This document shows, in pieces, positions 10,056-62,673 of a stretch of 64,000 nucleotides of DNA (position 1 is its first letter; each line of letters opens with the position of its first letter). The stretch spans positions 1 to 64,000 of the forward strand of contig CATLBR010000002.1 in the NCBI GenBank assembly GCA_949879795.1, given 5' to 3'. Position numbers and translations under genes: made by a program. The DNA is from an uncultured Hungatella sp. (GTDB lineage Bacteria; Bacillota; Clostridia; Lachnospirales; Lachnospiraceae). The notes beneath the pieces were generated by a model that did no database searches, was not told where the DNA came from, and saw only the letters and a program-made list of their open reading frames with translations.

Positions 10056-10261
10056 TTTGTCTCCTCCATCTTCATAAATGGTATACTATATCCAATTCTT
10101 CAGGAAAATACGGGAGATCCCCCACGGACATGCAAAACGTTTTTATGTCTGCCGGCTCAGAGAAAGCACGACAAAAACACGCCGGCAGCCATGCAGTTCT
10201 CTCCTGCATTCTGCGGCTTGCAAAACGGTACAATCAATGCCTCGTGATCTGGAAATAAATT

Positions 10262-10468
10262 CCCGTACCGACAGACGGCAGGTTTCCTGACTTGCAGATC
10301 TTCACAAAAAGCCGCCTTCCCGGTTTCCCAGTGACCGCGCGGATATGCGCCTGGCTTTTGCTCCCTGCTTACAGTGACGAGATCGTACAGGATTCTCACC
10401 TGTTTCCCTTTTACCTCTCTCCTCTGGCTTCTCCAAAAGAGACAGCACCGGCTGCCTTCAAAATTGTC
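10262..10468 (-). promoter_or_regulatory. Cobalamin (AdoCbl) riboswitch
   Basis: On the minus strand the B12-box landmarks appear in order: the GGGAA...GTGAGAATC...CTG segment (about 10415-10395), CACTGTAA (about 10375), and the AGTCAGGAAACCTGCC kissing element (about 10285-10272). These match the class I/II cobalamin riboswitch consensus. It lies in the leader of the ABC importer; ligand binding in this class lowers downstream expression. About 205 bases separate its 3' end from the substrate-binding gene. I could not pick out a clear expression platform. Boundaries are approximate. Confidence 0.9.
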
Positions 10469-10475
10469 TGTGGTC

Positions 10476-10504
10476 ATTGTAGCATTACAAGAAAAAATAT
10501 GCAA
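10476..10504 (-). promoter_or_regulatory. Sigma-A promoter of the riboswitch-ABC importer transcript
   Basis: On the minus strand, -35 TTGCAT (10504-10499) and -10 TACAAT (10481-10476) are separated by 17 bases. Predicted transcription start is near 10469, just before the cobalamin riboswitch. A TTGACA a few bases further upstream has the wrong spacing to this -10. Confidence 0.6.
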
Positions 10505-10680
10505 TATCCTGTCAAGGCCTTCTTCCGAAATCGTACAGGAAATTATTTTCAAATACCATACCGCATAAATCCACCCAAATCCGTACATCATTTCCATAGA
10601 ACCTTACAGCCCGTCCGGTTCATTCCTATTCTCACAGGCTGTAAGACCTGACAAAAAAGATGCTTGCGGAGGTAATGGAT

Positions 10681-11457
10681 ATGTCAATATACAAAGTTGA
10701 AATCTGCGGAGTCAATACGGCGAAGCTTCCGTTACTGAACAATGAAGAAAAAGAAGAACTGTTTAGGCGTATTAAACAGGGTGATAAAGAAGCCAGAGAG
10801 CAATACATTAAAGGCAATTTAAGGCTGGTACTCAGCGTCATTCAGCGCTTCTCCGGCAGCAACGAGAATGTGGATGATCTCTTCCAGATCGGCTGCATCG
10901 GCCTTATCAAGGCCATCGACAATTTTGACACGTCACAAAATGTAAAATTCTCCACCTACGCCGTTCCCATGATCCTGGGAGAAGTGCGCAGGTACCTGCG
11001 AGACAACAATTCCATAAGGGTCAGCCGGTCTCTGCGGGATACCGCCTACAAGGCGATCTATGCCAGAGAAGGACTGACAAGAAAAAACGCCAAGGAGCCT
11101 ACCATCATGGAGATCGCCGACGAAATCGGTATCAGCAAGGAGGAGATCACCTACGCTTTAGATGCTATCCAGACCCCTGTCAGCCTCTATGAACCGGTGT
11201 ACACAGACGGCGGCGACCCCCTCTATGTGATGGATCAGATCAGCGATAAAAAGAACTTGGAGGAAAACTGGGTGGAGGATATCTCCCTGAGCGAGGCCAT
11301 GAAGCGTCTTCCCGAGAGGGAGCGGCACATTATCGATATGCGCTTTTTCGAGGGTAAAACTCAGACTGAGGTGGCTGAGGAGATCCACATCAGCCAGGCC
11401 CAGGTCTCCAGACTGGAAAAAAATGCCCTGAAAACCATGAGAAATTACCTGAGCTGA
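10681..11457 (+). CDS. sigG: RNA polymerase sporulation sigma factor SigG
   Basis: Late forespore-specific sigma factor. The N-terminus KVEICGVNTAKLP is the hallmark of SigG; region 2 (NLRLVLSVIQRF, VDDLFQIGCIGLIKAIDNFD, FSTYAVPMILGEVRRYLRDN) and region 4 HTH (TQTEVAEEIHISQAQVSRLEK) follow. 258 aa, the family length. I start at the ATG at 10681 since GGAGG lies 8 bases upstream; in-frame ATGs at 10660 and 10675 lie before or too close to that site. The classical order would be spoIIGA-sigE-sigG in one direction; here sigG is on the opposite strand with a sirtuin gene between it and sigE. Confidence 0.95.
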   Translation: MSIYKVEICGVNTAKLPLLNNEEKEELFRRIKQGDKEAREQYIKGNLRLVLSVIQRFSGSNENVDDLFQIGCIGLIKAIDNFDTSQNVKFSTYAVPMILGEVRRYLRDNNSIRVSRSLRDTAYKAIYAREGLTRKNAKEPTIMEIADEIGISKEEITYALDAIQTPVSLYEPVYTDGGDPLYVMDQISDKKNLEENWVEDISLSEAMKRLPERERHIIDMRFFEGKTQTEVAEEIHISQAQVSRLEKNALKTMRNYLS

Positions 11458-11634
11458 TGTTCTGGTGCTCCTGTGGCCATTTCCGCTTCCACTGTTTTTC
11501 TACAAAAGAACTGTTTATCCTAAAATCCTCGAAAATTCCCGAAATTATTTTATTATTTTTTGAAAACTTGTAGATTTTATCCAAAAAAAATAGTATAATA
11601 TCTTTATCAACCATACATGAAAGGGGAATTAGTG

Positions 11635-12366
11635 ATGGACGACAAGATTATCAGACTGCAGAGAATTCTAGATGAAAGCCACTATACAGTAGCCTTGTGC
11701 GGTTCCGGCATGATGGAGGAAGCAGGCTTTATCGGCATAAAAAATCAGGATAAGGCCTACGACATCGAACAGAAATACGGGTACGGCTCCGAAGAGCTGT
11801 ACACCAGCGCGTTTTACAACGCACGTCCGGAACTGTTCTTTACATTTTACCGCAACGAACTGCTCAACCACGCCCCTGAACCTACAGCCTCAGGCCCCGC
11901 TATGATGACACTTGAGAAAAACGGTCATCTACACTGCGTCATCACCAGCAACATATATGACCTGCCCGGCAGAGGTGGCTGCAAGAACGTGATCAACCTG
12001 CACGGCAGTATTTTTGACAACCATTGTCCCCGGTGCAAGAAAAAATATCCACTGGAGTACATCCAACATTCTCCCCGCAAGGTTCCCTTATGTGAAAAGT
12101 GCAACATTCCCGTAAGGCCTCTGGTTTCTCTGTTCGGGGAGATGGTGGACAGCCAGCGCATGACAAAAACTACTATGGAGATTTCCAAGGCAGATGCCCT
12201 CCTGCTTTTGGGAACTTCCATGGATTCCGATGTCTTCAGTCATTACATAAAGTATTTCACCGGCCGATGGCTTATCATCATTCACAACAAGCCCCACTAT
12301 ATGGACGGCTCCGCCAGCATGGTGATTCTTGACCATCCGAAGAATGTTCTGCCTCTGCTCACCTGA
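11635..12366 (+). CDS. Divergent Sir2-family (sirtuin) protein
   Basis: NAD-dependent deacylase family, 243 aa. Conserved: LCGSG (residues 21-25) in place of GAGxS, the catalytic His in NLHGS (His123), a structural zinc site of two Cys pairs (Cys131/134 and Cys153/156), and LLGTSM near residue 192. Odd: the usual TQNID motif reads TSNIY (Asp replaced by Tyr), and the SGIPDFR segment of the NAD loop is not recognisable, so activity may be reduced or altered. The start at 11635 has AAGGGG 8 bases upstream. It sits between sigG and the convergent sigE gene, 177 bp after sigG. Confidence 0.8.
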   Translation: MDDKIIRLQRILDESHYTVALCGSGMMEEAGFIGIKNQDKAYDIEQKYGYGSEELYTSAFYNARPELFFTFYRNELLNHAPEPTASGPAMMTLEKNGHLHCVITSNIYDLPGRGGCKNVINLHGSIFDNHCPRCKKKYPLEYIQHSPRKVPLCEKCNIPVRPLVSLFGEMVDSQRMTKTTMEISKADALLLLGTSMDSDVFSHYIKYFTGRWLIIIHNKPHYMDGSASMVILDHPKNVLPLLT

Positions 12367-12387
12367 TTTGTGTGATCTTTGTCGTAC

Positions 12388-12430
12388 AGAAAGGGAGATG
12401 GGTATTGTCAGGATGCCCATCTCCCTTTCT
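12388..12430. terminator. Bidirectional terminator between sirtuin gene and sigE
   Basis: A 15-bp perfect stem (12388-12402 with 12416-12430, core AAAGGGAGATGGG) and a 13-base loop, located between two convergent genes. The right arm touches the last base of the sigE stop. T-runs are weak on both sides, so efficiency is uncertain. Confidence 0.65.
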
Positions 12431-13170
12431 CACTCAAATCTCACAATCTCTTTTTTCAGTCTTTTCATGATCTTTTTCTCCAGCCGTGAGATGTAGGACT
12501 GAGAGATCCCTAAAAGGTCCGCCACCTCCTTCTGTGTCATCTCATCACCGTCCTCGCTGGTAAGCCCGTATCTCAGCTCCACAATCTTTTTCTCCCTGGG
12601 GCTTAAGCGGCTGATAGCCAGATTCAGCAGATCCTTCTCTGTCTCGTATTCCAGATCCCGATAAATCACATCCTCATCGGTTCCCAAAACGTCTGACAGA
12701 AGCAGTTCGTTGCCGTCCCAGTCCACGTTCAAAGGCTCATCGATGGAAACTTCCATCTTGGTCTTATTGTTTCTGCGCAGATACATCAGTATCTCGTTTT
12801 CGATACACCGGGAAGCGTAGGTGGCCAGCTTAATATTTTTTTCCGGGTTAAATGTGTTGATGGCCTTGATGAGACCTATGGTTCCGATAGAGATCAGATC
12901 CTCCACCCCTACACTGGTATTGTCAAATTTCTTGGCTATGTACACCACAAGGCGAAGATTGTGTTCGATGAGCGCTGATTTCGCCTGAGCCTCTTCTTCT
13001 GTTCCCAGCTTTTGTATCAGTCTTGTCTCCTCCTCCCCGTCCAGAGGCGCAGGCAGAATATCTGCCCCGCCGATATAATGTACCTCACCCTCTTTCTGAA
13101 ACAGCATCGTCTTAAAACTGGGCGCCGTCTTAAACTGAAAGCGGTTAGGTATGGATACTTTAATCACCAC
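12430..13170 (-). CDS. sigE: RNA polymerase sporulation sigma factor SigE (pro-form)
   Basis: Early mother-cell sigma factor, made as an inactive precursor and cleaved by SpoIIGA. 246 aa from a GTG at 13170, chosen because AAGGAGG lies 8 bases upstream; the longer frame has no such site. The first 29 residues form the pro-sequence, ending just before EVHYIGG as in known SigE proteins. The rest is highly conserved: [49 protein letters not shown] and the [16 protein letters not shown]. The start overlaps the end of spoIIGA by 11 bp, consistent with coupled synthesis of protease and substrate. Confidence 0.95.
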
Positions 13171-51578: not shown

Positions 51579-51610
51579 TACTGATTTTCACGAAAACGAT
51601 GAGCAGTGCG

Positions 51611-51673
51611 AAAAAGGATTTGCGGTCCGGGTCGTTGTGCTTGCACATAAGACCCGGACCGCAAATCCTTTTT
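51611..51673 (-). terminator. 23-bp perfect palindromic terminator
   Basis: Perfect 23-bp stem (51611-51633 with 51651-51673, arms AAAAAGGATTTGCGGTCCGG...) and a 17-base loop; ends in TTTTT on the minus strand. Framed by a 9-bp outer inverted repeat GAGCAGTGC (51601-51609) / GCACTGCTC (51722-51730). It lies between the vWA operon end and the plsX promoter, so it can end the vWA operon; the length of the stem and the outer repeat are more than a terminator needs. Confidence 0.8.
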
Positions 51674-51792
51674 CATAGGGCGAACGTCCGTGAGCGAGAT
51701 GGAGCGCAAAAGAATCGAACAGCACTGCTCCGCCATAAACCGGTATACCTGATCGTCTCCGCCCACAAGGCGCCCCCGCTTCCTACTAAATT
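51674..51792. other. Intergenic stretch with no recognised gene
   Basis: Between two hairpins. A short open frame on the minus strand over 51673-51909 has no ribosome site and overlaps both hairpins. The text CGAACGTCCGTGAGCGAG next to the big hairpin looks like part of a dispersed intergenic repeat rather than coding sequence. Confidence 0.4.
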
Positions 51793-51823
51793 AAAGGACA
51801 GTACCATAAAAGGACTGCCCTTT
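51793..51823 (-). terminator. First terminator after the vWA gene
   Basis: On the minus strand: AAAGGGCAGT paired with ACTGTCCTTT (one G-T pair) with an 11-base loop, followed by AATTTAG. About 140 bases after the vWA stop. Confidence 0.6.
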
Positions 51824-51962
51824 CGATTACAGCAGGATGATGAGTCGGACGACACTCTGCGACCCCTAAATCTGCTTTCTATATTAAACATATCAAAGAA
51901 AATAACCATATGATCCTGTTATCATTGTCTTAAGAAAAACCAAACATATCATGGCTGTATCA

Positions 51963-53153
51963 TCACTCCTTCGCCATCTCCGCCAGGTCCTGACCCTTAA
52001 GCGCCCTCTCCAGAAGCTCCGGCAGCTTCTGAGGATTACAGGCGAAGCAGGGAATCCCCATGCGGGCCACCTTCTCCGCCATCTGGGCGTCATAGTAAGG
52101 CTTCCCGCCGTCAGCGATGGCCAGAAGGCACACCACCGTCACTCCGCTCTCTTTGAGCTCCCCCAGCCGTCTTACTAGAGCCGCCCTGTTTCCCCCCTCC
52201 ATCAGGTCGCTGACCAGGAAAAACAGAGTCTTCTTAGGGTTCTCCACAAACCGGCTGCAGTAGGCCACGGACTTGTCGATATCCGTGCCTCCCCCCAGCT
52301 GAAATCCGAACAGCAGATCCACCGGGTCGTCGCATTTTTCCGTCAGATCCACCACCTGGGTGTCAAAGGCTACGATCCTGGTCTTTACCGATGCCATGCT
52401 GGCCAGAATACAGCTGATGATGGAGGAATAGATCACCGATTCCCCCATGGAACCGCTCTGGTCCACATCCAGGATGATGGTATACTTGTTGGCCGCTGTG
52501 GTGGAGGTGCGGTCAAAGAAATAATAATGCTCCGGGATAATCTTTTTCAGCTCCGGCCTGTAATTCTTGATTCCTCTTCTTATGGTGGTGGGAAAATCCA
52601 GGGCCGAGGCGGAGGGAATGGGGGAATGCTGCCTCTTGTTCACCGCCGCCGTCACCGCTCTTCTGATATCGCTTTCCAGAAGCTTGTTGATCTCCTCCAC
52701 GATCTTTTTCATAAATTCCCGGACGCTCTCCTTGCTCCTTTTGGGTACCTGGTCTTTCAGGAGGAGGATGGTGGTGGCCAGATTCATATCCGGCTCCAGG
52801 TTCTCCAAAAGCTCCGGCTCAAAGATCAGCTGTTTTAATCCGCACCGCTCCATGGCGTCCGCCTGTACGATCTTTACCAGATCTTTGTCAAAAAGGGTTC
52901 TCACATCCCCCAGCCACCGGGTGATCTGGGGGTTTGAAGGCCCGTGGCCTGCCCCTCTTCCCCCTGGTCCGAATCCGCCCTGGGAAGTGTTGTTGTAGAT
53001 ACAGGCCAGGGCCTGGTCCATGAGCCACTGCTCCTGGGAAAGGGAAAGTCCCTCTCCCCCGTTCATCTTGTCAAACCCTTCTTCACTGTCCTGGCCCAGG
53101 ATGAGACGCCACCTGGTCATGCGCTCCTTTAATTTCTCGTCAGATATCCCCAA
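51963..53153 (-). CDS. vWA-domain protein of the MoxR-vWA system
   Basis: 396 aa. The C-terminal half is a von Willebrand A domain with an intact MIDAS motif D-Q-S-G-S (Asp231, Ser233, Ser235 in DVDQSGSMGES), the threonine in GGGTDID, and the SDLMEGG loop. The first half is helical, with a Gly-rich stretch at 58-73. Such proteins act as metal-dependent partners of MoxR ATPases. I place the start at the TTG at 53153, nine bases after GGAGG and overlapping the previous gene by 14 bp; the ATG at 53120 is an alternative. Last gene of the operon. Confidence 0.88.
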   Translation of the reverse strand: MGISDEKLKERMTRWRLILGQDSEEGFDKMNGGEGLSLSQEQWLMDQALACIYNNTSQGGFGPGGRGAGHGPSNPQITRWLGDVRTLFDKDLVKIVQADAMERCGLKQLIFEPELLENLEPDMNLATTILLLKDQVPKRSKESVREFMKKIVEEINKLLESDIRRAVTAAVNKRQHSPIPSASALDFPTTIRRGIKNYRPELKKIIPEHYYFFDRTSTTAANKYTIILDVDQSGSMGESVIYSSIISCILASMASVKTRIVAFDTQVVDLTEKCDDPVDLLFGFQLGGGTDIDKSVAYCSRFVENPKKTLFFLVSDLMEGGNRAALVRRLGELKESGVTVVCLLAIADGGKPYYDAQMAEKVARMGIPCFACNPQKLPELLERALKGQDLAEMAKE

Positions 53154-55569
53154 AATCAAAATCCTCCAATCCTTCCAGCATCTCCATGGCATCGTCTGTC
53201 AGACTCTCATTGAGAATCTCGCTGACCTGTTCCGGGTTTACCTGCCAGATCTCTCCCAGATTCTCCGCGATCTGATTCTTCTCCATGGAAGAAAAATCCG
53301 CGAAAGCCCGGCGCAAAAACAGCAGAGCCCTCTTAAATTCTTCCTCATCCAGGGTATCCAGATATCCGCTCAGCTTCTCCCACAGGGTAAGGCGGGCGAT
53401 GAGGGCATAGTGATTTCTGGAAGACAGTCCGGCGAACCACCCGGCTCCCAGTTCCGCCGGGATTCCTCTGGAGAGACGCCGCTCCACCTCCCGTCCCAGC
53501 TCCTCGCTGTCCATGATCCCCTGTTCTAGGAGGATGGAGGCGGCCAGCCCGGAAAGCCGGGTATTTAAGTCGTCTCTGGCGGCAATCTGTCCCAGGACAT
53601 CTAAGAAACGGTCACTGTCCAGAAAATCATGGGTCACGCTGACTGTCTGAAGACGGCCTATGGCTGTGGCCAGGGCCCCTGCCGCCCCGTCGTCACAGGC
53701 GCATTCTCCCGGCAGGATCAGGCAGGCCCGAAGAAACAGCTGAGACAATATGGGGATCAGAGGCCTCCGGTCCAGTTTTCGGATATCTCCGTACTGGATC
53801 ACCACCGACAGGCTTCCGGCCGTGTCAGCAATCTGAGCCACCGTCGCGGCGTCCACGGCCATGGCCTGGAGATGGTCCAGAGCCGCCGACACCATAACAG
53901 GCATGCCGCAGTAGAAGGCCTCCTCCACGATCCCGGCCATCCCGGCGATCCCCTGACTCTCCTCCATCCGGTTTTTCAGCTCAAAAGCCGCCGCCTGCTC
54001 CACCGTATCACCTTTTAACACCGCCTCCACGATCTGGATCTCCGCCTCCGGTGTCCACCTTAAGTTCCACTGTTCCGCCCAGGTGGCATTGTCCTGGCGG
54101 GCTTTCTGGACCTGGGCAAACTGGATACCCAGCACTCTCAGACGATGGAGGAAAAAGGAACGCTCCAGATCGAGAAAAGCCGCTTTTTTCGTCTTGACCC
54201 TTAAGTTTTCCCTTAAGTCCAGGGAAAGCTCCGAGGCGGTGACGGATTTATATTTTTCCAGTTTCAGTTCCTTTAATTTCTGATAGAAATCCCTCTGTAT
54301 GGAGGTCTGGCTTACCCCCTGGGGAAGGCTTCCGATCTTGGTGCCGATCTCCGTGTCGGCGGCCGCCAGGGCTAATTCAGAAAAGGAACCGTGGCCCATA
54401 CAGGTAATGGCCCCATCCCGCAGATCCTTGAGGGTGGGGATCCTGCCGTCGTGAAGTCCGGCCAGGGCCCCCGCCAGTCTGGCCGCCTCCAGAACCTCAG
54501 CCGAGGATACCACCCCGCCGTGATTTCTCTGAAACGCCGCCAGACCCGTGAGATACCGCCTGGCCCCAAAGTCCGGCTCCTTCCTCAAAAGTCCCTGCCA
54601 CAGATATTCGTAGTAAGCCGGAGCCCGGTTTCCCGCGCCATAGCCGGAATGCTCCGAAAGCCGGTAGTAGGAATAGGGCATCAGGGTCTTCATGGACTCC
54701 AGACGGGGAAGGGCCTTCAGCTCTTTGTCCGTCATAGCCGGATCCCCGCCCAGAATCCCGTCCACATGGTAGGCTCCCGTGATAACCGCGATCTTTTCGG
54801 GCAAAATCCCTTCCTTTACGGCCTCTTCAATCTGCCTTCTCATAAAGGCTTCCCGGACCAGATTTTCCCCGTGGTCCCTGACGCTTCTGGAATCCAGCTG
54901 CCGCAGGGAGCGGCCGAACTCTTTGGCTCCCATCTCATACCCGGCAGCGTCTACGGCCTGCTCCATGGTCCGCTCCCAGAAGGTCTCGTGGTCCTTGTCC
55001 TGGCACTGTCTGTCAAGGGCCCGGTAGACGTCGAATTCTTCCTGGTCCTGTACAGTTTCCTGATCCGGCAGGGCTGCCTGTTCCTTACTTTTTCCAGCTT
55101 TCCCTGCCTTCGTCTCCCGGTCTGCCTCCTGGCTGCCACTCTGTCCCTGGTTCTTATCCGAGTCCTCCGTCTCCGCCTCCCGCTCTTTGGCTTTCCCGGT
55201 CTCCGCTTCCCATAAAGCCGCCTCCCTGGCCTCTCTGGCAGCTCTCATGCCGAGAAACACTTCCGAGGGCAGGTCGCAGAACCGGCACCTGCGTCCGTGT
55301 TCCCTGGCCCAGAGAAGGGCCTGATATTCCGGGGAATACTCGGCGAAGGGATAGAGGATGGTCCGGATGGGAAGCTCTTTTGTGTAGGCCATGACAGCGA
55401 CCGGAGGCTTTACCTCTTCCGCCCCTAGGTCTTCCATCAGATCCGTAAAATCACAGGGTCCCTCGATGAGAACCAGCCCGGGGTCTGTCCGGTCCAGAAA
55501 TTCCCTCACATAGTAAGCCCCCGCCGGGGAGAGATGGCGGATTCCAAATACAAAAGGCTGTCTCTCCAT
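53140..55569 (-). CDS. DUF5682-family protein
   Basis: 809 aa. N-terminal FVFGIRHLSPAGAYYVREFLD and LVLIEGPCDFTDLM, with VMAYTKELPIRTILYPFAEYSPEY, are typical of DUF5682 proteins found beside MoxR and vWA genes. Residues 130-190 are a charged low-complexity linker (Glu, Lys, Gln, Ser). Further on GAYHVDGILGG may be an active or binding loop, but no catalytic role is known to me. The ATG overlaps the MoxR stop as TGATG, so translation is coupled. Large central helical region; no membrane segments. Confidence 0.8.
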   Translation of the reverse strand: MERQPFVFGIRHLSPAGAYYVREFLDRTDPGLVLIEGPCDFTDLMEDLGAEEVKPPVAVMAYTKELPIRTILYPFAEYSPEYQALLWAREHGRRCRFCDLPSEVFLGMRAAREAREAALWEAETGKAKEREAETEDSDKNQGQSGSQEADRETKAGKAGKSKEQAALPDQETVQDQEEFDVYRALDRQCQDKDHETFWERTMEQAVDAAGYEMGAKEFGRSLRQLDSRSVRDHGENLVREAFMRRQIEEAVKEGILPEKIAVITGAYHVDGILGGDPAMTDKELKALPRLESMKTLMPYSYYRLSEHSGYGAGNRAPAYYEYLWQGLLRKEPDFGARRYLTGLAAFQRNHGGVVSSAEVLEAARLAGALAGLHDGRIPTLKDLRDGAITCMGHGSFSELALAAADTEIGTKIGSLPQGVSQTSIQRDFYQKLKELKLEKYKSVTASELSLDLRENLRVKTKKAAFLDLERSFFLHRLRVLGIQFAQVQKARQDNATWAEQWNLRWTPEAEIQIVEAVLKGDTVEQAAAFELKNRMEESQGIAGMAGIVEEAFYCGMPVMVSAALDHLQAMAVDAATVAQIADTAGSLSVVIQYGDIRKLDRRPLIPILSQLFLRACLILPGECACDDGAAGALATAIGRLQTVSVTHDFLDSDRFLDVLGQIAARDDLNTRLSGLAASILLEQGIMDSEELGREVERRLSRGIPAELGAGWFAGLSSRNHYALIARLTLWEKLSGYLDTLDEEEFKRALLFLRRAFADFSSMEKNQIAENLGEIWQVNPEQVSEILNESLTDDAMEMLEGLEDFDFGDI

Positions 55570-56657
55570 CAATGATTTAACTCCTTGCACTCTTTATAGA
55601 GGGAAAGCCATCTGGAACCCCTCTTTTTCATGATGTTCTCCAGATACTCTTCCCACACCTTCTGATCCTTCTCGTCCTCTTTTACCACAGCCCCCTGAAG
55701 ACCGGCGGCCAGGTCGTAATCCGTGATGTTTCCGTTGCCGAAGCTCCCCGCCAGAGCCATGCTGTTGGCCAGAAGGGATATGGCCTCCGCCGTGGACAGC
55801 ACTCCTGTGGTGGTCTTCAGCTTCTGCTTTCCATCCAGAGTTGCCCCTGCCCTCAGCTCCCGGAAAATGGTACACACCTTCTCCACCACTTCCGTCTCCG
55901 GCAGTTTGGCGTTCAGGTCCAAGCTCTCCGACAGCTGGGCGATCCTGGTCTTCACGATCTCCATCTCCGCCTCCAGATTCTCCGGAGCCGGGAGAACCAC
56001 GATGTTAAACCGCCGCTTCAAAGCCGCCGACATCTCGTTGACTCCCTTGTCCCTGGTGTTGGCCGTGGCGATGACGGAAAATCCCTTTCTGGCAGGGACC
56101 TCGATGCCCAATTCCGGCACGGAGATCCGCTTCTCCGACAAAATGGAGATCAGGGCATCCTGAACCTCTGAGGCGCACCTGGAGATCTCCTCCACCCTGG
56201 CGATGGCTCCCTCTTCCATGGCCCGGTACACGGGGCTGGGAATCATGGCCTCTTTCGACGGCCCGCTGGCGATGAGCATGGCATAATTCCAGGAATACTT
56301 GATCTGCTCCTCCGTGGTTCCGGCAGTTCCCTGGATCACCCTGGTGGAATTGCCGTTGATGGCAGCCGTCAAATGCTCCGACAGCCAGGACTTGGCTGTC
56401 CCCGGCTCCCCGATGAGAAGAAGGGCCCGGTCCGTCACCAGGGTGGAGATGGCGATCTCCACCAGACGCTCATGGCCGATGTACTTGGGGGTGATCTCCA
56501 CCCCTCCGCTCTCTCCTCCGCAGATGTAGGTAAGCACCGACTTGGGCGACATGCGCCAGCCTGTGGGCACCGGATATTTCTCATTGGCGATCAAGGCATC
56601 GATCTCTCTCTGAAACAGCTGCTCCGCAGGCAGCCTTTGAACATTATTCTCACTCAT
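55569..56657 (-). CDS. MoxR-family AAA+ ATPase
   Basis: 362 aa. Walker A LIGEPGTAKS (residues 81-90), sensor/arginine segments IATANTRDKGVNEMSAALKRRF, and a Walker B that reads ARVEEISRC, with Glu where most AAA+ have Asp. MoxR proteins act as chaperone-like ATPases with a vWA partner. Start at the ATG at 56657: GGAGG lies five bases upstream. It is sandwiched between the ATPase-nuclease gene (27 bp upstream) and DUF5682. Confidence 0.9.
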   Translation of the reverse strand: MSENNVQRLPAEQLFQREIDALIANEKYPVPTGWRMSPKSVLTYICGGESGGVEITPKYIGHERLVEIAISTLVTDRALLLIGEPGTAKSWLSEHLTAAINGNSTRVIQGTAGTTEEQIKYSWNYAMLIASGPSKEAMIPSPVYRAMEEGAIARVEEISRCASEVQDALISILSEKRISVPELGIEVPARKGFSVIATANTRDKGVNEMSAALKRRFNIVVLPAPENLEAEMEIVKTRIAQLSESLDLNAKLPETEVVEKVCTIFRELRAGATLDGKQKLKTTTGVLSTAEAISLLANSMALAGSFGNGNITDYDLAAGLQGAVVKEDEKDQKVWEEYLENIMKKRGSRWLSLYKECKELNH

Positions 56658-56683
56658 GGTTTCCTCCAAATTCATGTTGATTT

Positions 56684-58384
56684 TTATAGCTGTTCTATTT
56701 TACAGGAATGCTTCTTTGTCTTCCTGCTGTAGCTGATACCCACAGCCAAAACACGGCCCGTAATTTTCGGTTTTTCTCCCAGTTTTCCCTTGAAACGAAG
56801 AGCGTAGTTCTTGTTCCTAATCTGCTGAATCGCTTTTTGAGGCGTACTGTCTACTTTCAATTCAAGAATGATCGCGTCATTTCCGCGGAATTGAGGATAG
56901 AAAATAAAATCCACATATCCCACTCCTGCCTTATCTTCTCTCTCCACACGATACCGGTCTCTGGCTGCCAGATAGACAAGATTGACGACGGCTGACAATT
57001 CGATCTCACTGTTGTAAGAAAAAAGCGGTGATTCCGTATTATGGGCAAATGTCAATATCTCTGTCATAGTCTTGGTGTCTCCCGAAAGAGTGGCCTCCAG
57101 CATTTTTTCCGATTCTCTGGCCAAGCTGTACACATATCCAAGGGAGTCTTTTGTCATCAGAAGATTTTGAAACTGTTTCATGATCTCCCGATTAGGTATA
57201 AAAACCTTCCCATCTTCATAGGTCAGCAGACCATATACCACCATAGCAGAATAAATCTCGTCCTTTGTTTTCAGTTCCATAGATACTGCCGCGTAATTCT
57301 GAATTTCCGCCTTAATACCTTCCCCTGCTGTCATGAGAACTATATCTTCCCGAACGTCATCGATATTATTTCTGATATAATAAAAGATTTCATCATACGG
57401 CCCTGAACTGGTCCAATAATCAGCCAGCTCATTATCCCCTAAGGCGCTGAGAATGGAACGGGGATTGTAGATCCTTTTTCCGCTGGCCGTGTGATAGCCA
57501 TCATACCATATACGCAGATCCTCTCTGGATATCTCCGGATTTATGGATTCTGTCTGATAGATTTCAAAAAGCCGGTCTACCTCTTCATCTAAAAACCCAA
57601 AATACTCGCTGAATTTTTTCTTGGTAGCCATGTCATATTCCAGAAACATATTGAGTTCTGAACCACTGGAATATGACGCCTCCGCAGGAAAGACTGCTTG
57701 CAGGCTTTCACCCGAGGCGTCAACGAAGGAATCGTCAGATTCCTGAGTACCGAACGAAGTGAGGCAAAAAGCGATCGGGAGCACGCCTGTCATATAGACC
57801 AGTTCCGCGTATACCTTTCCTTTTAAAAGTGACTTTAAGAAAAGCAGATATTCTTTCTGCTGATCCTCCGTGATAAACGGCATATGAAATATGGCATCCC
57901 ACTCGTCAAGGACAAAAATAAATTTCTGCCCGGTTTTTTGAAAAATATCTGTTAAAATATCCCAGACCGCATGTTCTTCATCAACTGGCAGTTCTTTATA
58001 TTCCTGGCACAGATCGAATTTCAGTCCACTGAGAATACGTGTGATATAATCATCATAAGACACACACTTCTCAGGCACCTCGCTGAAATCAATGTAGATT
58101 ACATTATGTTTATTCAGATGGTTCTTGTAATCCTTCCATTTCCCGATTTTGAGATTGTGAAACACTTTCTGTCCATCTGCCGCCTTCCCGAAAAAAGCTC
58201 CAACCATATTGGCCATAACGGTTTTTCCAAAACGGCGGGGTCTTGTAATGCAAAAAAACCGTTTTTCTCTTCCCAGAGACGGAATCAATTCTGATATCAG
58301 CCATGATTTATCTACAAAATATGGATCCAAAGCCATGGACTTAAACATTTCAAAAGGGACTTTACTGTTCAAAAATCTCCCCAT
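56684..58384 (-). CDS. AAA-ATPase-like / PD-(D/E)XK nuclease fusion protein with in-frame palindromic insertion
   Basis: 566 aa. N-terminal ATPase: P-loop RPRRFGKT (48-55), Walker B FIFVLDEWD (156-163). C-terminal PD-(D/E)XK nuclease: Asp in GYVDFIFYP and ELK in IILELKVD. The known family reads PIAKYSSGSELNMF in the middle; here 32 residues (206-237) intervene, encoded by a structured element (57674-57769). The gene is visibly AT-richer than its neighbours (one 60-base line counted 40% GC against 58% in the vWA gene). AAGGAGG lies 15 bases before the ATG, too far for a good site. Probably an acquired gene inside the operon; function in it unknown. Confidence 0.82.
   Translation of the reverse strand: MGRFLNSKVPFEMFKSMALDPYFVDKSWLISELIPSLGREKRFFCITRPRRFGKTVMANMVGAFFGKAADGQKVFHNLKIGKWKDYKNHLNKHNVIYIDFSEVPEKCVSYDDYITRILSGLKFDLCQEYKELPVDEEHAVWDILTDIFQKTGQKFIFVLDEWDAIFHMPFITEDQQKEYLLFLKSLLKGKVYAELVYMTGVLPIAFCLTSFGTQESDDSFVDASGESLQAVFPAEASYSSGSELNMFLEYDMATKKKFSEYFGFLDEEVDRLFEIYQTESINPEISREDLRIWYDGYHTASGKRIYNPRSILSALGDNELADYWTSSGPYDEIFYYIRNNIDDVREDIVLMTAGEGIKAEIQNYAAVSMELKTKDEIYSAMVVYGLLTYEDGKVFIPNREIMKQFQNLLMTKDSLGYVYSLARESEKMLEATLSGDTKTMTEILTFAHNTESPLFSYNSEIELSAVVNLVYLAARDRYRVEREDKAGVGYVDFIFYPQFRGNDAIILELKVDSTPQKAIQQIRNKNYALRFKGKLGEKPKITGRVLAVGISYSRKTKKHSCKIEQL
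57674..57769 (-). repeat. 96-nt palindromic element inserted in frame in the ATPase-nuclease gene
   Basis: Contains an 8-bp stem GACGCCTC/GAGGCGTC (57675-57682 with 57714-57721) enclosing GAAAG/CTTTC arms, and a 7-bp hairpin AGGAATC-GTCA-GATTCCT (57727-57744). It has no stop in the host frame and encodes 32 residues. The host frame is intact on both sides. The 57727-57744 hairpin core matches that of the tandem repeat at 1-231. Confidence 0.75.
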
Positions 58385-58404
58385 ATTATCCGCTCGTTTC
58401 CTCC

Positions 58405-60285
58405 TTACAAATCTCCCGCCAAAATCCCGTTTTTCAGCTTATCTCGCCACATCTCCAGGACTCCTACGCCGATTCTGGCCTTCTTCCCATAGCTCCTTAT
58501 AAGGCTGTCCAGCTCCTGGGCCAGCTCTTCACTGCTCATAGGCAGTTCTGTCAGAAGCTCTCTGATCTCATAGGTAGCGATGTGGTCATTCTTCTTTCCC
58601 GTGAGAGCCAAAAGGCCCTTGTAATCCTTCCAGCCGCATCGTTTCAGCATCCGTATGTCAGCGGCCACGGTTCCCCGCAGTCTGGCTCCCTGATAAAAAT
58701 AGTTCCCATAAGCTTCTTTCAGCTCTTCCATGTCAGGGCGGAACAGACCTGCCACCATGGCGTCATAGCCATTGTCATAGCTGCTTCTCACCTGTCTCCG
58801 AAGCCGGGTATCAAACCGGTCCTTTGACTGTAACAGAAGGGGATACCACCGGGTGTCCAATCCGTTCTCAAGTCTGGTAATTACGGTCCGGAAACGGATG
58901 GGGGAATCCCAGGATTCCCGGTACACCACATAGCCGCCCTCCTGCTCATCGTAACGCACCCGCATGAGGACCTGATAGATTCCCAGAGGATCCCTCTTTT
59001 TGCCGCCAATGTCCTTTCCCATATCCGGAAGACCCGCTGTCCTTACATATGGACTGAACCTGTCATAGACCGCCTCCGGGCTCTTGGTCAGCAGATCCAC
59101 CCAGAACACGGACTGAAGAAACCGGTCTCCGTAATCCCTGTACAGTTCCTCCGCCGTCCGGCACAGATTCTCCGGCTGCTCCTCCATGAGAGAAGTCCAC
59201 AGATTATCTGCCGTCTCCTTTGGGATTACCTGACAGACCCGCTTGTAGCAGGCACACAGCCGGGGAGAAGACTTCCTCTGGGCTCCTCTCCACAGATCGT
59301 ACAAAAGCTGCCGATCTTCCTCTTTCAGCTCCTTTAGTTTGAGATCTGACGCATCAAAGGTATCCAGCCACTGCTCCAGATGTTCCCCTATGAGATCCGA
59401 GGCCCACTGGGTTCTGGAATCCTGGAGATAGTCCACAGCCTTGCCCGGCTTTTTCTCCATCTGCTTTCTCCAGAACTCCCTGGCCCCTTCCCCGTTCATA
59501 TGGGTCAGAGCGCAGAGGGCCGCCTCTTTCACCTTCCCCTTCTCCGATTTCACCAGATCCAGCAAAAGCCCCTCGTTCTCCTCTCTGTGCCTCAGCGCCC
59601 GGACAAGTTCTTCCTTCACTTCCTTCGAGGCTTTCGGAAGGGCCTCCACATAGAAATCATTTTCCTCTCCCCCGGCGATGGCCGATATCAGCTCCACCCG
59701 TCTGGCCATATCCCGCTTTCCTTCCGGGTCAAATCCCTGCTTTAACAGAGGAAGGATCTCCTGGCCCTCATCCAGAAGCCATCCGGCCACCATGTCCGCC
59801 AGATCCCCGTAACTGTCCCCCAGTGCCTTCACCATAAGATGTCTGATTCTGAAATCTTCGAAAATCTCCGGCTTCTCCTCATGTGCATCCCGGATGACGG
59901 CGTATCTGCCGCTTCCCGTTCCCCGAAACGCCTCCAGCACCGGGGCCATCTGTCTGTAGGGAATCTTGACTGGGATTCCTCCCTGTCGGTCTTTGACGTC
60001 AATCTCCTGCCATTCCCCCTCTTTTAAAAGCCCTCCCTGAGTACACAGAACCGCATCCAGAAGGGCCAGGGTATCCAAAACCGCCGCCGTCCTGTCCTCA
60101 CACTCCAAAGCGACGGCTTTCTGGGCCATCTGACAGATCTTTCCGAACACCGGGGAAGCCTTGGCCAGAGGAGCCATCTGCTCCACGGCCCTCTTTAACC
60201 GGAAATCCTCCCCGATCAGACCGGTCCCTGCCACCGCCGCTGTCTTCAACCGGTCTCTCACCTCATAAACCACACTCAAATTCAT
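58405..60285 (-). CDS. Helical-repeat (HEAT-like) protein of the MoxR-vWA operon
   Basis: 626 aa, mostly alpha-helical with several HEAT-like helices (ARRVELISAIAGG, VKEELVRALRHREENEGLLLDLVKSEKGKVKEAALCAL read in pieces). The second half has LQSVFWVDLLTKSPEAVY and DIRMLKRCGWKDYKGLLALTG. In other bacteria, clusters with SWIM, MoxR, DUF5682 and vWA genes often contain a DUF5691-type helical protein in this position; I infer the same role but cannot confirm family membership. 20 bp before the ATPase-nuclease gene. Confidence 0.65.
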   Translation of the reverse strand: MNLSVVYEVRDRLKTAAVAGTGLIGEDFRLKRAVEQMAPLAKASPVFGKICQMAQKAVALECEDRTAAVLDTLALLDAVLCTQGGLLKEGEWQEIDVKDRQGGIPVKIPYRQMAPVLEAFRGTGSGRYAVIRDAHEEKPEIFEDFRIRHLMVKALGDSYGDLADMVAGWLLDEGQEILPLLKQGFDPEGKRDMARRVELISAIAGGEENDFYVEALPKASKEVKEELVRALRHREENEGLLLDLVKSEKGKVKEAALCALTHMNGEGAREFWRKQMEKKPGKAVDYLQDSRTQWASDLIGEHLEQWLDTFDASDLKLKELKEEDRQLLYDLWRGAQRKSSPRLCACYKRVCQVIPKETADNLWTSLMEEQPENLCRTAEELYRDYGDRFLQSVFWVDLLTKSPEAVYDRFSPYVRTAGLPDMGKDIGGKKRDPLGIYQVLMRVRYDEQEGGYVVYRESWDSPIRFRTVITRLENGLDTRWYPLLLQSKDRFDTRLRRQVRSSYDNGYDAMVAGLFRPDMEELKEAYGNYFYQGARLRGTVAADIRMLKRCGWKDYKGLLALTGKKNDHIATYEIRELLTELPMSSEELAQELDSLIRSYGKKARIGVGVLEMWRDKLKNGILAGDL

Positions 60286-60342
60286 AGTCTGCTCCTTTTA
60301 TTATCACTGTTCCACTGAAATCAGCCATACAGATCCTGTCTT

Positions 60343-61092
60343 TTACTCTCTCCATATCACCGTATCCATCTGTCCGCCTAATTGGAGGGGATAACTTTCC
60401 ATCACCATTCCGTCATAACGGACCCTGATCCGATCACCTGCGGCGGCCGTCTTTTTCTGTTCCTCATTGAGTCCCACCAAGACCTGATCCCCGGAACTTC
60501 TGATGGGCCATCCATTTTCCACCGATACCAGGGCCGACTCGCCGTACAGTTCCGTGATCACTCCCTCAAAAGTCTCACCCTCAAACACAAGACGAGGATA
60601 TTCCCCTTCTGTCCTGAGAGTCAGCAGGTCCATGACTTCACTGAGCATCACATAGCTGCTCCTTCTGTCAAACCGTGTCCCCAGATCGACTCCGTATCCC
60701 AGACTGGCCCCATATCCGCAGATATCACACACAACCCGGTTCTCTCCCGAACCGCTGTCATAGTCCACGAAGATCAGCTGAACCATGCCTTCATTTACCG
60801 TCTCCTGCAGATGTTCCCCGGAGCATCCCATAGCCTGGGCCATCTCATCTCTCGTGGTGTAGGGATCAAAGGTATATACCTGGTCCCACAAAAAGGGCGT
60901 CAGCTCCGACAGTTCCACGCAGTCCCCCTCCTGAGCCTGGGCTGCCCACTGTTTTACTGCCTTGGAAAATGCCCGGTTATTGCGGCTCACCGGATCCAGG
61001 ATGCCAAAGACCCTGTTGAAGAGAAACACTGCCGCCCCGCCGGTGACGACCAGCAGGACCATACCTGTCATGATCTTCTTTTTTCTGATCAT
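60343..61092 (-). CDS. Membrane-anchored protein with DUF3221-like C-terminal domain
   Basis: 249 aa. A basic N-terminus and one transmembrane segment (about residues 7-28) anchor it outside the cytoplasm. The C-terminal 70 residues (FEGVITELYGESALVSV, GDRIRVRYDGMVMESYPLQ) match the DUF3221 pattern, seen in small secreted Firmicutes proteins. The middle has a Cys pair (VVCDICGYG). I start at the ATG at 61092; the longer frame runs into the SWIM gene. It is an unusual member of a MoxR-vWA operon, placed between the SWIM and helical-repeat genes. Confidence 0.65.
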   Translation of the reverse strand: MIRKKKIMTGMVLLVVTGGAAVFLFNRVFGILDPVSRNNRAFSKAVKQWAAQAQEGDCVELSELTPFLWDQVYTFDPYTTRDEMAQAMGCSGEHLQETVNEGMVQLIFVDYDSGSGENRVVCDICGYGASLGYGVDLGTRFDRRSSYVMLSEVMDLLTLRTEGEYPRLVFEGETFEGVITELYGESALVSVENGWPIRSSGDQVLVGLNEEQKKTAAAGDRIRVRYDGMVMESYPLQLGGQMDTVIWRE

Positions 61093-61108
61093 ATTCTTTT
61101 TCCGCCCT

Positions 61109-62599
61109 CTAATATAAAAATCTGTAAATCCCGTCTTCCTTAATAACGCTGCATGGATGGATTCCCATCTGCCGGTCCTCGGAGTCATAGTATGCCAGTC
61201 CGAAGAGCACTCCTTCTCTGTAGAGAGAGGGATGGGGAAGCAGGGGGATCATGGAAACCGTATCCTCCATCCCCTCCGGACTGCGCAGTTTGACCCTGTT
61301 CCCGCTGTGATCCCTCATGGCATAGACTGTCTTTTCGGCCTCTCTGTTTTCGCTGCCGCCGTCGCCGGCTATCGGCCCAACTTTCACCATACCGATTTCC
61401 TCATAGGACACCAGAACAGGACAGTATCCCTGGGATAATGTATTTTTTATTTCATTTTTCACCGCCTTCATGGCCGTGGGAAGATCCCTATAAGCCTTTT
61501 CCATGATCCCTGTATAGACTGTCTCCGGTATATCCTCATAAGAGGCAGACTCCCACCGGACTCTCCTGTCTGTGGTGCCGGGATAATAGCTGAGGACCGG
61601 TATCCGCAGAAGCCCGAAACAGGAATCCTCCTGCTTTACATACTTGAGGGCCTTCACCGGGCGGTAATTACAGGTGTGAACGATCTGTCCGTCATCCACA
61701 TCCACCCAGTATCCCCTGTCAATGTACTCTTTTCTGGCAGCGTCAAAGGAAACCTGGAAGGACAACTGTACCAGACGGGCCTGTTCCTTCTTAAGACCCA
61801 GGTCATTTAACTGCTCCAGCTTCCAGATCCCTCCCAGCTCCTCGTAGAGCTCATCGTCGTCTGCCTCGGGGCTGTCACTGTCCAGTTTGTCCTGGAGGTA
61901 ACTCTGAGCCTTTTTCTCCAGTGCCCGAAGTTTTTTGAGAATCTCCACGCCGTTTTCATAGTGGCTCGGGTTCTGGTCTTTCTGGCAGGCCTCCATCTCC
62001 AGAATCAGCCGGTTCAGATACACCAGAGGGCCGGGCAGATAGTAATCCCCCAGCTGCTTTGCCAGGTCCCGGTAAGTCTTTAAAGACACGCTTCCCATGG
62101 CCGCCAGTCCGCCTTTCATCAGCCCGTCTGTCAGCTGCCTCAAAAGCTCAAGACCCTCCAGCTGCTTTTTAATCTTCTTTGTCCTGGCCGCCTTTGAGGC
62201 CTTTTTGCTCCTCTCCGTGGCAGGCTTTTTCTCACCTGACTGCTTCCCCGCCTCCCTGGCCTCTTTCTTCTCTCTCTTGTCCAGAATATCCTGGGGGATC
62301 TCCGTCAGGGCAAATTCTTTTCCCGCCGCCATGGTGTAGAGCAGCGCCAGGCTGTGCTTACAGGGAAACTGCCGGCTGGGACAGCTGCACCGGAACACCG
62401 GATGCTCCTCATCTATGTAGTCCGCTGACACAATATAATTGTTCTTTCCGCTTCCCTTGCATTCCCCCATATAAAAGCTGTCGTCCTCAGACCTTTTCAG
62501 AGACACGAACCCGCCCCCTGAACATATCTTTCTGCCATTGGCCGCCGCGTTGGCATTGGGCGCCAGAGCGGCGATCTCCTGTTCCTTTACTGTTCTCAT
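61109..62599 (-). CDS. SWIM zinc-finger protein
   Basis: 496 aa. The SWIM finger CxCxnCxH is complete: Cys71, Cys73, Cys80, His82 in FRCSCPSRQFPCKHSLALL. A Lys/Ala/Glu-rich linker (about 105-145) leads to a long helical region (EKKAQSYLQDKL) and a C-terminal beta-rich part. SWIM fingers bind DNA or proteins. First gene of the operon; AGGAGAGGAT precedes the ATG. Confidence 0.85.
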   Translation of the reverse strand: MRTVKEQEIAALAPNANAAANGRKICSGGGFVSLKRSEDDSFYMGECKGSGKNNYIVSADYIDEEHPVFRCSCPSRQFPCKHSLALLYTMAAGKEFALTEIPQDILDKREKKEAREAGKQSGEKKPATERSKKASKAARTKKIKKQLEGLELLRQLTDGLMKGGLAAMGSVSLKTYRDLAKQLGDYYLPGPLVYLNRLILEMEACQKDQNPSHYENGVEILKKLRALEKKAQSYLQDKLDSDSPEADDDELYEELGGIWKLEQLNDLGLKKEQARLVQLSFQVSFDAARKEYIDRGYWVDVDDGQIVHTCNYRPVKALKYVKQEDSCFGLLRIPVLSYYPGTTDRRVRWESASYEDIPETVYTGIMEKAYRDLPTAMKAVKNEIKNTLSQGYCPVLVSYEEIGMVKVGPIAGDGGSENREAEKTVYAMRDHSGNRVKLRSPEGMEDTVSMIPLLPHPSLYREGVLFGLAYYDSEDRQMGIHPCSVIKEDGIYRFLY

Positions 62600-62643: not shown

Positions 62644-62673
62644 ATCATACCACTGTAGGGGAAATGGTGTAAA
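62644..62673 (-). promoter_or_regulatory. Sigma-A promoter of the SWIM-MoxR-vWA operon
   Basis: On the minus strand, -35 TTTACA (62673-62668), 18-base spacer, -10 TATGAT (62649-62644), 45 bp before the SWIM start. A dyad GCCAT/ATGGC (62674-62678 and 62689-62693, 10-base gap) lies just upstream of the -35 and could be an operator. Confidence 0.6.

Follow-up and report, generated by a model that had tools for sequence, protein, structure and literature searches.

In this paper we describe a seven-gene operon on the reverse strand of a 64,000-nucleotide stretch of DNA from an uncultured Hungatella sp. (contig CATLBR010000002.1, positions 1 to 64,000; hereafter the window) and assign it, by sequence comparison, to the YehL-type MoxR-vWA systems, which are represented in Escherichia coli by yehLMPQ, rather than to a new kind of system. 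Five of its genes, encoding SWIM, helical-repeat, MoxR, DUF5682 and vWA proteins, are a conserved unit. Two further genes, encoding an ATPase-nuclease and a membrane-anchored protein, are recent genus-level additions captured into that unit, and the window thus holds a variant of a known, little-studied machine with two recent extra genes. The most interesting result, and the one that is new here, is a predicted TIKI-type domain in the DUF5682 protein, the counterpart of E. coli YehM. With a putative site in this domain, an E. coli operon that has been an orphan can be tested directly in terms of residues, chemistry and clients, and with the core separated from its recent cargo the nuclease need not mislead functional guesses.

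Identity of the operon

The operon consists of seven same-strand open reading frames (ORFs) at 51963-62599 (- strand), and both the ORFs and Pfam agree with the tight spacing and the domains given for them in an initial annotation of this DNA, which did not recognise the operon as a YehL system. The MoxR gene (55569..56675, - strand; PF07728, AAA_5, 3.2e-40) encodes an AAA+ ATPase of the YehL type with GEPGTAKS at residue 89, and its product shares 40% identity with E. coli YehL over 361 residues; the YehL subfamily is one of seven into which MoxR proteins have been divided (PMC3893208). The DUF5682 protein (53140..55590, - strand; Pfam DUF5682, 4.9e-151) is 25% identical to YehM, and the vWA protein (51963..53192, - strand; PF05762, VWA_CoxE, 2.2e-41) is 32% identical to YehP. 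In the latter the domain match covers residues 174-392 of 409, no effector domain is fused after it, and the metal ion-dependent adhesion site (MIDAS; DQSGS...GGGTD...SD) is intact. The SWIM zinc-finger protein of 496 aa (61109..62599, - strand; PF04434, 8.4e-5) has the motif CSCPSRQFPCKH at residues 71-82, with Cys and His residues invariant across 18 aligned sequences. PF04434 is found in YehQ as well; beyond the zinc motif the window SWIM protein has no profile match to YehQ, which weighs against the assignment. The fifth core protein, of 626 aa (58405..60285, - strand), is a HEAT-like helical-repeat protein which is syntenic in relatives and matches HEAT_2 weakly (E 0.026). Active-site motifs are seen in the MoxR, vWA and SWIM proteins as well as in the ATPase-nuclease.

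In E. coli K-12 the genes yehL (MoxR), yehM (DUF5682), yehP (vWA) and yehQ (SWIM) are consecutive, and yehM is annotated as a DUF5682 family protein. At a coverage of at least 80%, yehLMPQ is present in 5162 of 5426 E. coli genomes, and 5320 of its 5322 places are on chromosomes. Such near-universal chromosomal presence argues for a resident function. Neither DUF5682 nor DUF5691 is mentioned anywhere in the open literature searched, and no functional study of the yeh operon was found there among titles and the starts of abstracts, subscription literature being outside the scope of both searches. The yeh block and the genes next to it are among those deleted from a genome-reduced strain (PMC10652928), and a paper on evolution under copper mentions yehM (PMC12409786).

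Conservation and distribution of the core

A scan for DUF5682 in one genome per species (84,980 species) returned 442 stretches, and the best 80 of these 442 were analysed. The complete core of five genes was detected in 63 of these loci, and in 62 of the 63 it lies on one strand in the order SWIM, helical repeat, MoxR, DUF5682, vWA. The initial annotation had held the core to be a conserved machine and had proposed a comparison of gene order among Lachnospiraceae; the order found here bears it out. The lone exception is locus L161 (same contig as L058), where the vWA gene is first and not last. The other 17 loci are short of at least one core gene, mostly from contig ends; within the available DNA, no vWA gene lies downstream in L144 and L178 and no SWIM gene lies upstream in L164 and L169. 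Distribution is patchy, the system being present in 11 of 26 genomes of the genus, in 41 of 397 genomes of the family, and in 11 of 398 genomes in a sample of the phylum, 8 of them above the cut-off.

Locus L002 is on a 2.1-Mb Fusobacterium vincentii record (NZ_CP084075.1) which is labelled a plasmid and is chromosome-like in size. Its MoxR is 83.5% identical to that of the window, a likeness across phyla that may reflect horizontal transfer.

Two layouts of the system can be distinguished. In type I, the layout of the window, the order is SWIM-helical-MoxR-DUF5682-vWA, which is also the one annotated in Deinococcus taeanensis and Rhizobium etli, where a DUF5691 gene takes the helical position. 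In type II the order is MoxR-DUF5682-vWA, then SWIM, which was confirmed in L052, L053, L055, E. coli and Agrobacterium vitis; MoxR-DUF5682-vWA comes first in L051-L053, L055, L196-L200, E. coli L068 and L207. The second layout coexists with the first in some genomes, and three genomes of the family (G594, G661 and G693) hold one DUF5682 of each score class. In a Streptomyces match the vWA gene precedes MoxR and no DUF5682 is listed. A large DUF4132 protein is encoded near the type II operon in L052, E. coli (yehI) and Agrobacterium, and because the L052 protein has a HEAT_2 match, below the cut-off, a large helical protein may be constant to both layouts. Two proposals for the helical gene of the window were set aside. 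Its identity with DUF5691 is unsupported by single-sequence profile comparison, a result that counts against the assignment of the operon, and its kinship with DUF4132 comes down to a weak HEAT-level match (2.2%, E 0.021).

The N-terminal domain of DUF5682

The DUF5682 protein is predicted to consist of an N-terminal TraB/TIKI-like domain (approximately residues 11-305) followed by helical repeats. Within this domain H19, E43, E88, D106, R246, E247 and H275 are invariant in 27 of 27 and in 56 of 56 sequences. The first strand ends in a GxRH-type motif, which is kept from Lachnospiraceae to E. coli together with a Glu 24 positions further on, SPE, D106, R246-E247 and G-x-x-H; the G of this first motif is present in 22 of 27 and in 55 of 56 sequences. 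In three TraB proteins encoded in genomes of the same class the first motif is GTAH (two) or PTAH (one) and GAAH is present in all; in one of the TraB proteins (L218) a Glu lies 24 residues after the first His, which is the spacing of H19 and E43 in DUF5682.

Profiles were compared with hhalign. TraB sequences came from 11 loci, six of which entered the larger alignment and three the smaller, while five were left out because the chosen ORF was fragmentary or truncated. A profile of 27 DUF5682 sequences (25 after filtering) matched the three-member TraB alignment at 94.3% (E 9.8e-8) with both GxxH motifs aligned, and the same 27-member profile matched the six-member alignment at 86.7% over the first motif; five control profile comparisons gave 0.1-0.4%. 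The structures are predicted with confidence: that of the full-length protein has a predicted local distance difference test score (pLDDT) of 85.1 and a predicted template modelling score (pTM) of 0.78, and that of the N-terminal domain 84.7 and 0.82. When the N-terminal model was compared by Foldseek with the Protein Data Bank (PDB), the first-ranked match was a TraB family protein of Tetrahymena complex IV (7w5z_E; E 0.86, not significant), which also ranks 13 and 42 among the 50 matches listed. DUF5682 has no sequence relative in the PDB, and Pfam searches of single DUF5682 sequences gave no TraB match.

Several results weigh against this relationship. A 56-member N-terminal profile, built from close relatives, matched TraB at the lower values of 61.5% (second motif) and 14.9% (first motif), and a ChaN-family sequence, from one of two such loci found, matched DUF5682 at 0.1%. 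No fold match of the N-terminal model was significant, and when the full-length model was the query no match reached E 0.001 and helical-repeat proteins filled most of the top ranks. As to activity, the accessible text of PMC6254334 describes TIKI-superfamily enzymes which hydrolyse peptide or ester bonds via a set of His and Glu residues, and also a member of the fold without that set that was inactive in one study's assay. Given the conservation of the motifs, the profile match, the model and the His-Glu precedent of TIKI enzymes, the DUF5682 N-terminal domain is likely to belong to the TraB/TIKI superfamily, and hydrolase activity is plausible.

Proposed function

In NorQD, as described in the available part of PMC13036017, a finger of the vWA partner enters the pore of the AAA+ ring, the ring twists its target, and the MIDAS is suggested to hold the client. 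This analogy and the intact MIDAS are the grounds on which we propose ATP-driven client remodelling. The MoxR ring would spend ATP in remodelling a client protein that the vWA protein holds via its MIDAS; DUF5682 would cleave or otherwise hydrolyse the presented client, or a small ligand; and client recognition and scaffolding of the complex would fall to the SWIM and helical-repeat proteins. The most likely role would be in protein quality control or processing rather than in phage defence. We give about an even chance to this proposal, in which a MoxR-vWA remodelling engine of the YehL type works together with a putative TIKI-like hydrolase in such a role.

The same evidence bears on another reading, in which the system is a chaperone for cofactor insertion or complex maturation like NorQD or CoxD; MoxR and vWA would then twist open a target enzyme for insertion of a metal, and DUF5682 would be a non-catalytic scaffold or metal carrier with a TIKI fold. 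The MoxR-vWA pairs that have been studied act in this way, as far as the available portions of PMC13036017 and PMC3893208 go, and the vWA protein of the window is CoxE-like with its MIDAS intact. The His and acidic residues of the TIKI-type site, however, do not vary between Lachnospiraceae and E. coli, and this invariance points to catalysis, or at the least to binding of a metal. No metalloenzyme was recognised among the flanking gene clusters common to at least 4 of the 80 loci, a survey which, with only some of the clusters identified, does not amount to a test. We consider the chaperone reading unlikely.

For the remodelling and hydrolysis reading, gene neighbourhoods offer a lead. In 9 of the 80 loci (L146, L155, L157, L159, L164, L165, L168, L169 and L181) clpS begins between -20 and 107 bp after the vWA stop codon, and in L152 it begins 1,953 bp after it. 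The gene clpA follows in 8 of these 10 loci and aat in 6, several contigs ending before that point. The close, same-strand placement of clpS is a lead that ties the system to N-degron proteolysis. Against its weight, all ten loci belong to a single clade of 12, whose remaining members L150 and L151 are without clpS there, so that the link is probably a single event; the window's own genome has clpS elsewhere; and the link was found in none of the 48 loci of a second set, within the DNA available. Part of this clade (L152, L164, L165, L169 and L181) also has the helical-repeat gene tandemly duplicated or triplicated.

We put forward only tentatively, as a possibility that falls well short of even, the broader idea that YehL-type operons, yehLMPQ included, encode an unrecognised ATP-dependent hydrolytic machine in which a MoxR ring and a vWA adaptor feed a TIKI-fold peptidase (DUF5682/YehM). 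Such a machine would stand alongside ClpS-ClpA N-degron proteolysis and would be open to lineage add-ons like the ATPase-nuclease.

Lineage-specific additions

The ATPase-nuclease of the window (56684..58384, - strand) is a lineage-specific member of the DUF1703 family in which an AAA-ATPase-like domain (PF09820, 3.3e-23) is joined to a PD-(D/E)XK nuclease domain (PF08011, 3e-7); Walker A (RPRRFGKT), Walker B (FIFVLDEWD) and the nuclease motif D...ELK are all there. It lies between the helical and MoxR genes in 3 of the 11 system-bearing genomes of the genus (3 of 26 overall), namely the window, L060 and L065, and is missing at that place in the sister species L059 and L063. The membrane-anchored protein (60343..61092, - strand), which has one N-terminal hydrophobic segment and a C-terminus that is weakly DUF3221-like, is likewise lineage-specific, being found in 4 of the 26 genomes (the window, G152, G154 and G157). 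Sisters L059 and L063 are without one or both of the two genes and their operons are otherwise intact. The initial annotation, which took both for additions to the core, was right in this respect. Five of its gene labels also stand. The remaining two are soft, since the DUF3221-like label corresponds to a PF11518 score of 18.6 bits against a curated cut-off of 26.4, and the helical-repeat label to the HEAT_2 match given above; among orthologues of the anchored protein, one scores 23.2 bits against DUF3221 and another has no match at E 0.01.

Of the 26 genomes of the genus, 24 have matches to the nuclease family, as many as 58 matching segments occurring in a single genome. PF09820 has nine matches in the genome of the window, and dispersed paralogues of the nuclease are up to 72-74% identical to it over part of their length. 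Expansions of the DUF1703 family are described, with no known function, in the available text of PMC6387759. Ratios of nonsynonymous to synonymous substitution (dN/dS) were calculated with our own Nei-Gojobori code and are rough, with dS near 1: 0.075 for the nuclease (one pair, window against L060), 0.22-0.28 for the anchored protein and approximately 0.04 for MoxR and vWA. On these values the nuclease is kept by selection and the anchored protein evolves faster, and sister species run the core without the nuclease.

In further species different genes are found within the operon, which therefore accepts varied cargo. DUF1266 and DUF6560 genes occur in L125 and L134, a GyrI-like protein and an alpha/beta hydrolase are encoded in L182, and L152 holds DUF6709, Sel1 and an AAA_35-PDDEXK_3 ATPase-nuclease. 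In L061 the helical and MoxR genes are separated by an opposite-strand gene for a GH36 alpha-galactosidase (L061:6533-8722, on one contig with L107:4501-6690), and L063 and L064 have related genes upstream of the operon. ATPase-nucleases are found at the operon in the clade of the window and in a second clade, where they lie inside the operon in L152, 91 bp upstream of the helical genes in L164, and a few small ORFs upstream of them in L169. This amounts to 3 changes on a FastTree tree when both nuclease types are pooled. The second set of 48 loci was searched for the PF09820-type nuclease only. We do not claim an enrichment of ATPase-nucleases at the operon, since the lineages are two, the numbers small, the family abundant genome-wide and the choice post hoc.

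The suggestion in the initial annotation that the additions supply an effector and an envelope sensor finds no support, because the nuclease family is multi-copy and unrelated genes occur inside the operon elsewhere. A more general form of it would make the two proteins functionally integrated regulators of the machine and not passengers. Their retention at this position in 3 and 4 species, the strong purifying selection on the nuclease and the tight spacing of the genes would all fit such a role, whereas the intact operons of L059 and L063, the unrelated genes in other species and the near relatives of the nuclease dispersed through the genome do not. We find integration doubtful.

Operon layout and signals

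Gene boundaries are close throughout. The longest ORF of the anchored protein begins at 61188 and overlaps the SWIM gene; given the ATG at 61092, the gap between the two is 16 bp. Further gaps are 57 bp (anchored to helical), 20 bp (helical to nuclease) and 8 bp (nuclease to MoxR). The end of MoxR at 55569 meets an ATG that is the more likely DUF5682 start, and this gives the TGATG overlap which had been noticed at first inspection; the 14-bp overlap of DUF5682 and vWA requires a TTG start.

The promoter read upstream of the first gene also holds up: at 62644..62673 (- strand) TTTACA is followed after 18 nucleotides by TATGAT, preceded by TG, giving an extended -10 (TGGTATGAT). Of 8 upstream regions that were aligned, 4, that of the window among them, contain the extended -10 (AGTGGTATGAT), and a fifth (L062) has a variant of it; the element was not seen in the regions of L059, L063 and L064, two of which are close sisters. 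Two terminators had been reported after the last gene, a hairpin at 51786..51832 (- strand; -16.8 kcal/mol, z -4.9) and a 24-pair stem with a small inner hairpin, ending in a T run, at 51605..51685 (- strand; -49.5 kcal/mol, z -10.0). Folded directly, both are more stable than all 200 shuffles, though a consensus terminator scan listed neither, both being outside its loop or stem limits; the terminator-like sites which that scan did list are no more frequent than expected by chance (11, against 12.6 in shuffled sequence). The second hairpin, between the operon and a plsX-like gene, is longer than the usual terminator. Rfam gave no match at gathering thresholds. The conservation of the operon in relatives indicates that it is more than chance, and we infer that its seven genes form one transcript.

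Evidence bearing on defence

The initial annotation connected the operon with conflict or defence. On such a reading the MoxR-vWA core would sense invaders, and this lineage would use the PD-(D/E)XK ATPase-nuclease as effector. A role in conflict is argued in PMC7159879 for the vWA-MoxR ternary systems described there, and the MoxR of the window passes the cut-off of the Pfam bpMoxR family (PF20030; 32.2 bits, cut-off 27), with AAA_5 far stronger at 137.8 bits. The patchy presence in the family, the purifying selection on the nuclease, and the two types of ATPase-nuclease in or upstream of the operon in the second clade would also suit a defence system. Both DUF5682 (5.9e-27) and vWA (4.7e-60) have matches among PHROGs families of unknown function, and 1 of 50,697 phage records has both genes, MT835988.1 (positions 9344-12767), a 14-kb record named Bacteriophage sp. 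from human faeces, which may be bacterial DNA.

Other results point away from defence. The matches from PADLOC were all marginal and partial, the best (8.3e-4) covering a piece of a profile for a type II restriction enzyme, and the NCBIfam MadB ATPase model, which has a cut-off of 475 bits, scored 48.9. Two peptide patterns picked out 46 candidate stretches in viral contigs, of which none encodes a DUF5682 relative, and a DNA search of phage records gave no match. On one side the operon is neighboured by rnc, acpP and plsX, and on the other no mobile-element gene scored above the cut-off. The vWA protein is without a fused effector, and, among Pfam matches listed up to E 1, none of the seven proteins shows another ternary-system component (VMAP, iSTAND, FtsH or beta-propeller). 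Copies of the nuclease family are numerous across the genome, and the E. coli counterpart is near-universal. The link that had been drawn to conflict systems is accordingly weak; a defence role is not supported, and we judge it improbable.

Comparison with known systems

The vWA-MoxR ternary systems (PMC7159879, from the text available) resemble the window in that MoxR and vWA are accompanied by more components in a fixed order, and in that the bpMoxR cut-off is passed. They differ from it in their third components, none of the four having been found in the window, and in the effectors fused to vWA, which the window protein lacks; the words SWIM and yehL do not appear in PMC7159879. The DUF1703 AAA-ATPase/PDDEXK_9 family, as described in the accessible part of PMC6387759, shares with the window nuclease the pairing of PF09820 and PF08011 and the expansion of the family, whereas the window has one copy inside a conserved operon.

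DUF5682 and the TraB/PrgY/TIKI proteins are alike in a GxxH-type first motif, a Glu 24 residues later, a second motif GAxH and the profile match between them. Unlike those proteins, DUF5682 is fused to long helical repeats, is encoded in a MoxR-vWA operon and usually has G-x-R-H as its first motif.

Among the operons themselves, Methylosinus and Hymenobacter records show the first four type I genes, with no vWA listed in a gene table that is incomplete. Those of Deinococcus taeanensis and Rhizobium etli have the core gene order of the window and differ in the DUF5691 annotation of the helical gene and, in Deinococcus, in a small gene between MoxR and DUF5682. In E. coli yehLMPQ, as in the window, the MoxR, DUF5682, vWA and SWIM genes stand together. 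The E. coli operon differs in that SWIM is last, that the DUF4132 gene yehI lies upstream, that no gene in the stretch read is annotated as a helical-repeat protein like that of the window, and that it is without the nuclease and the anchored protein.

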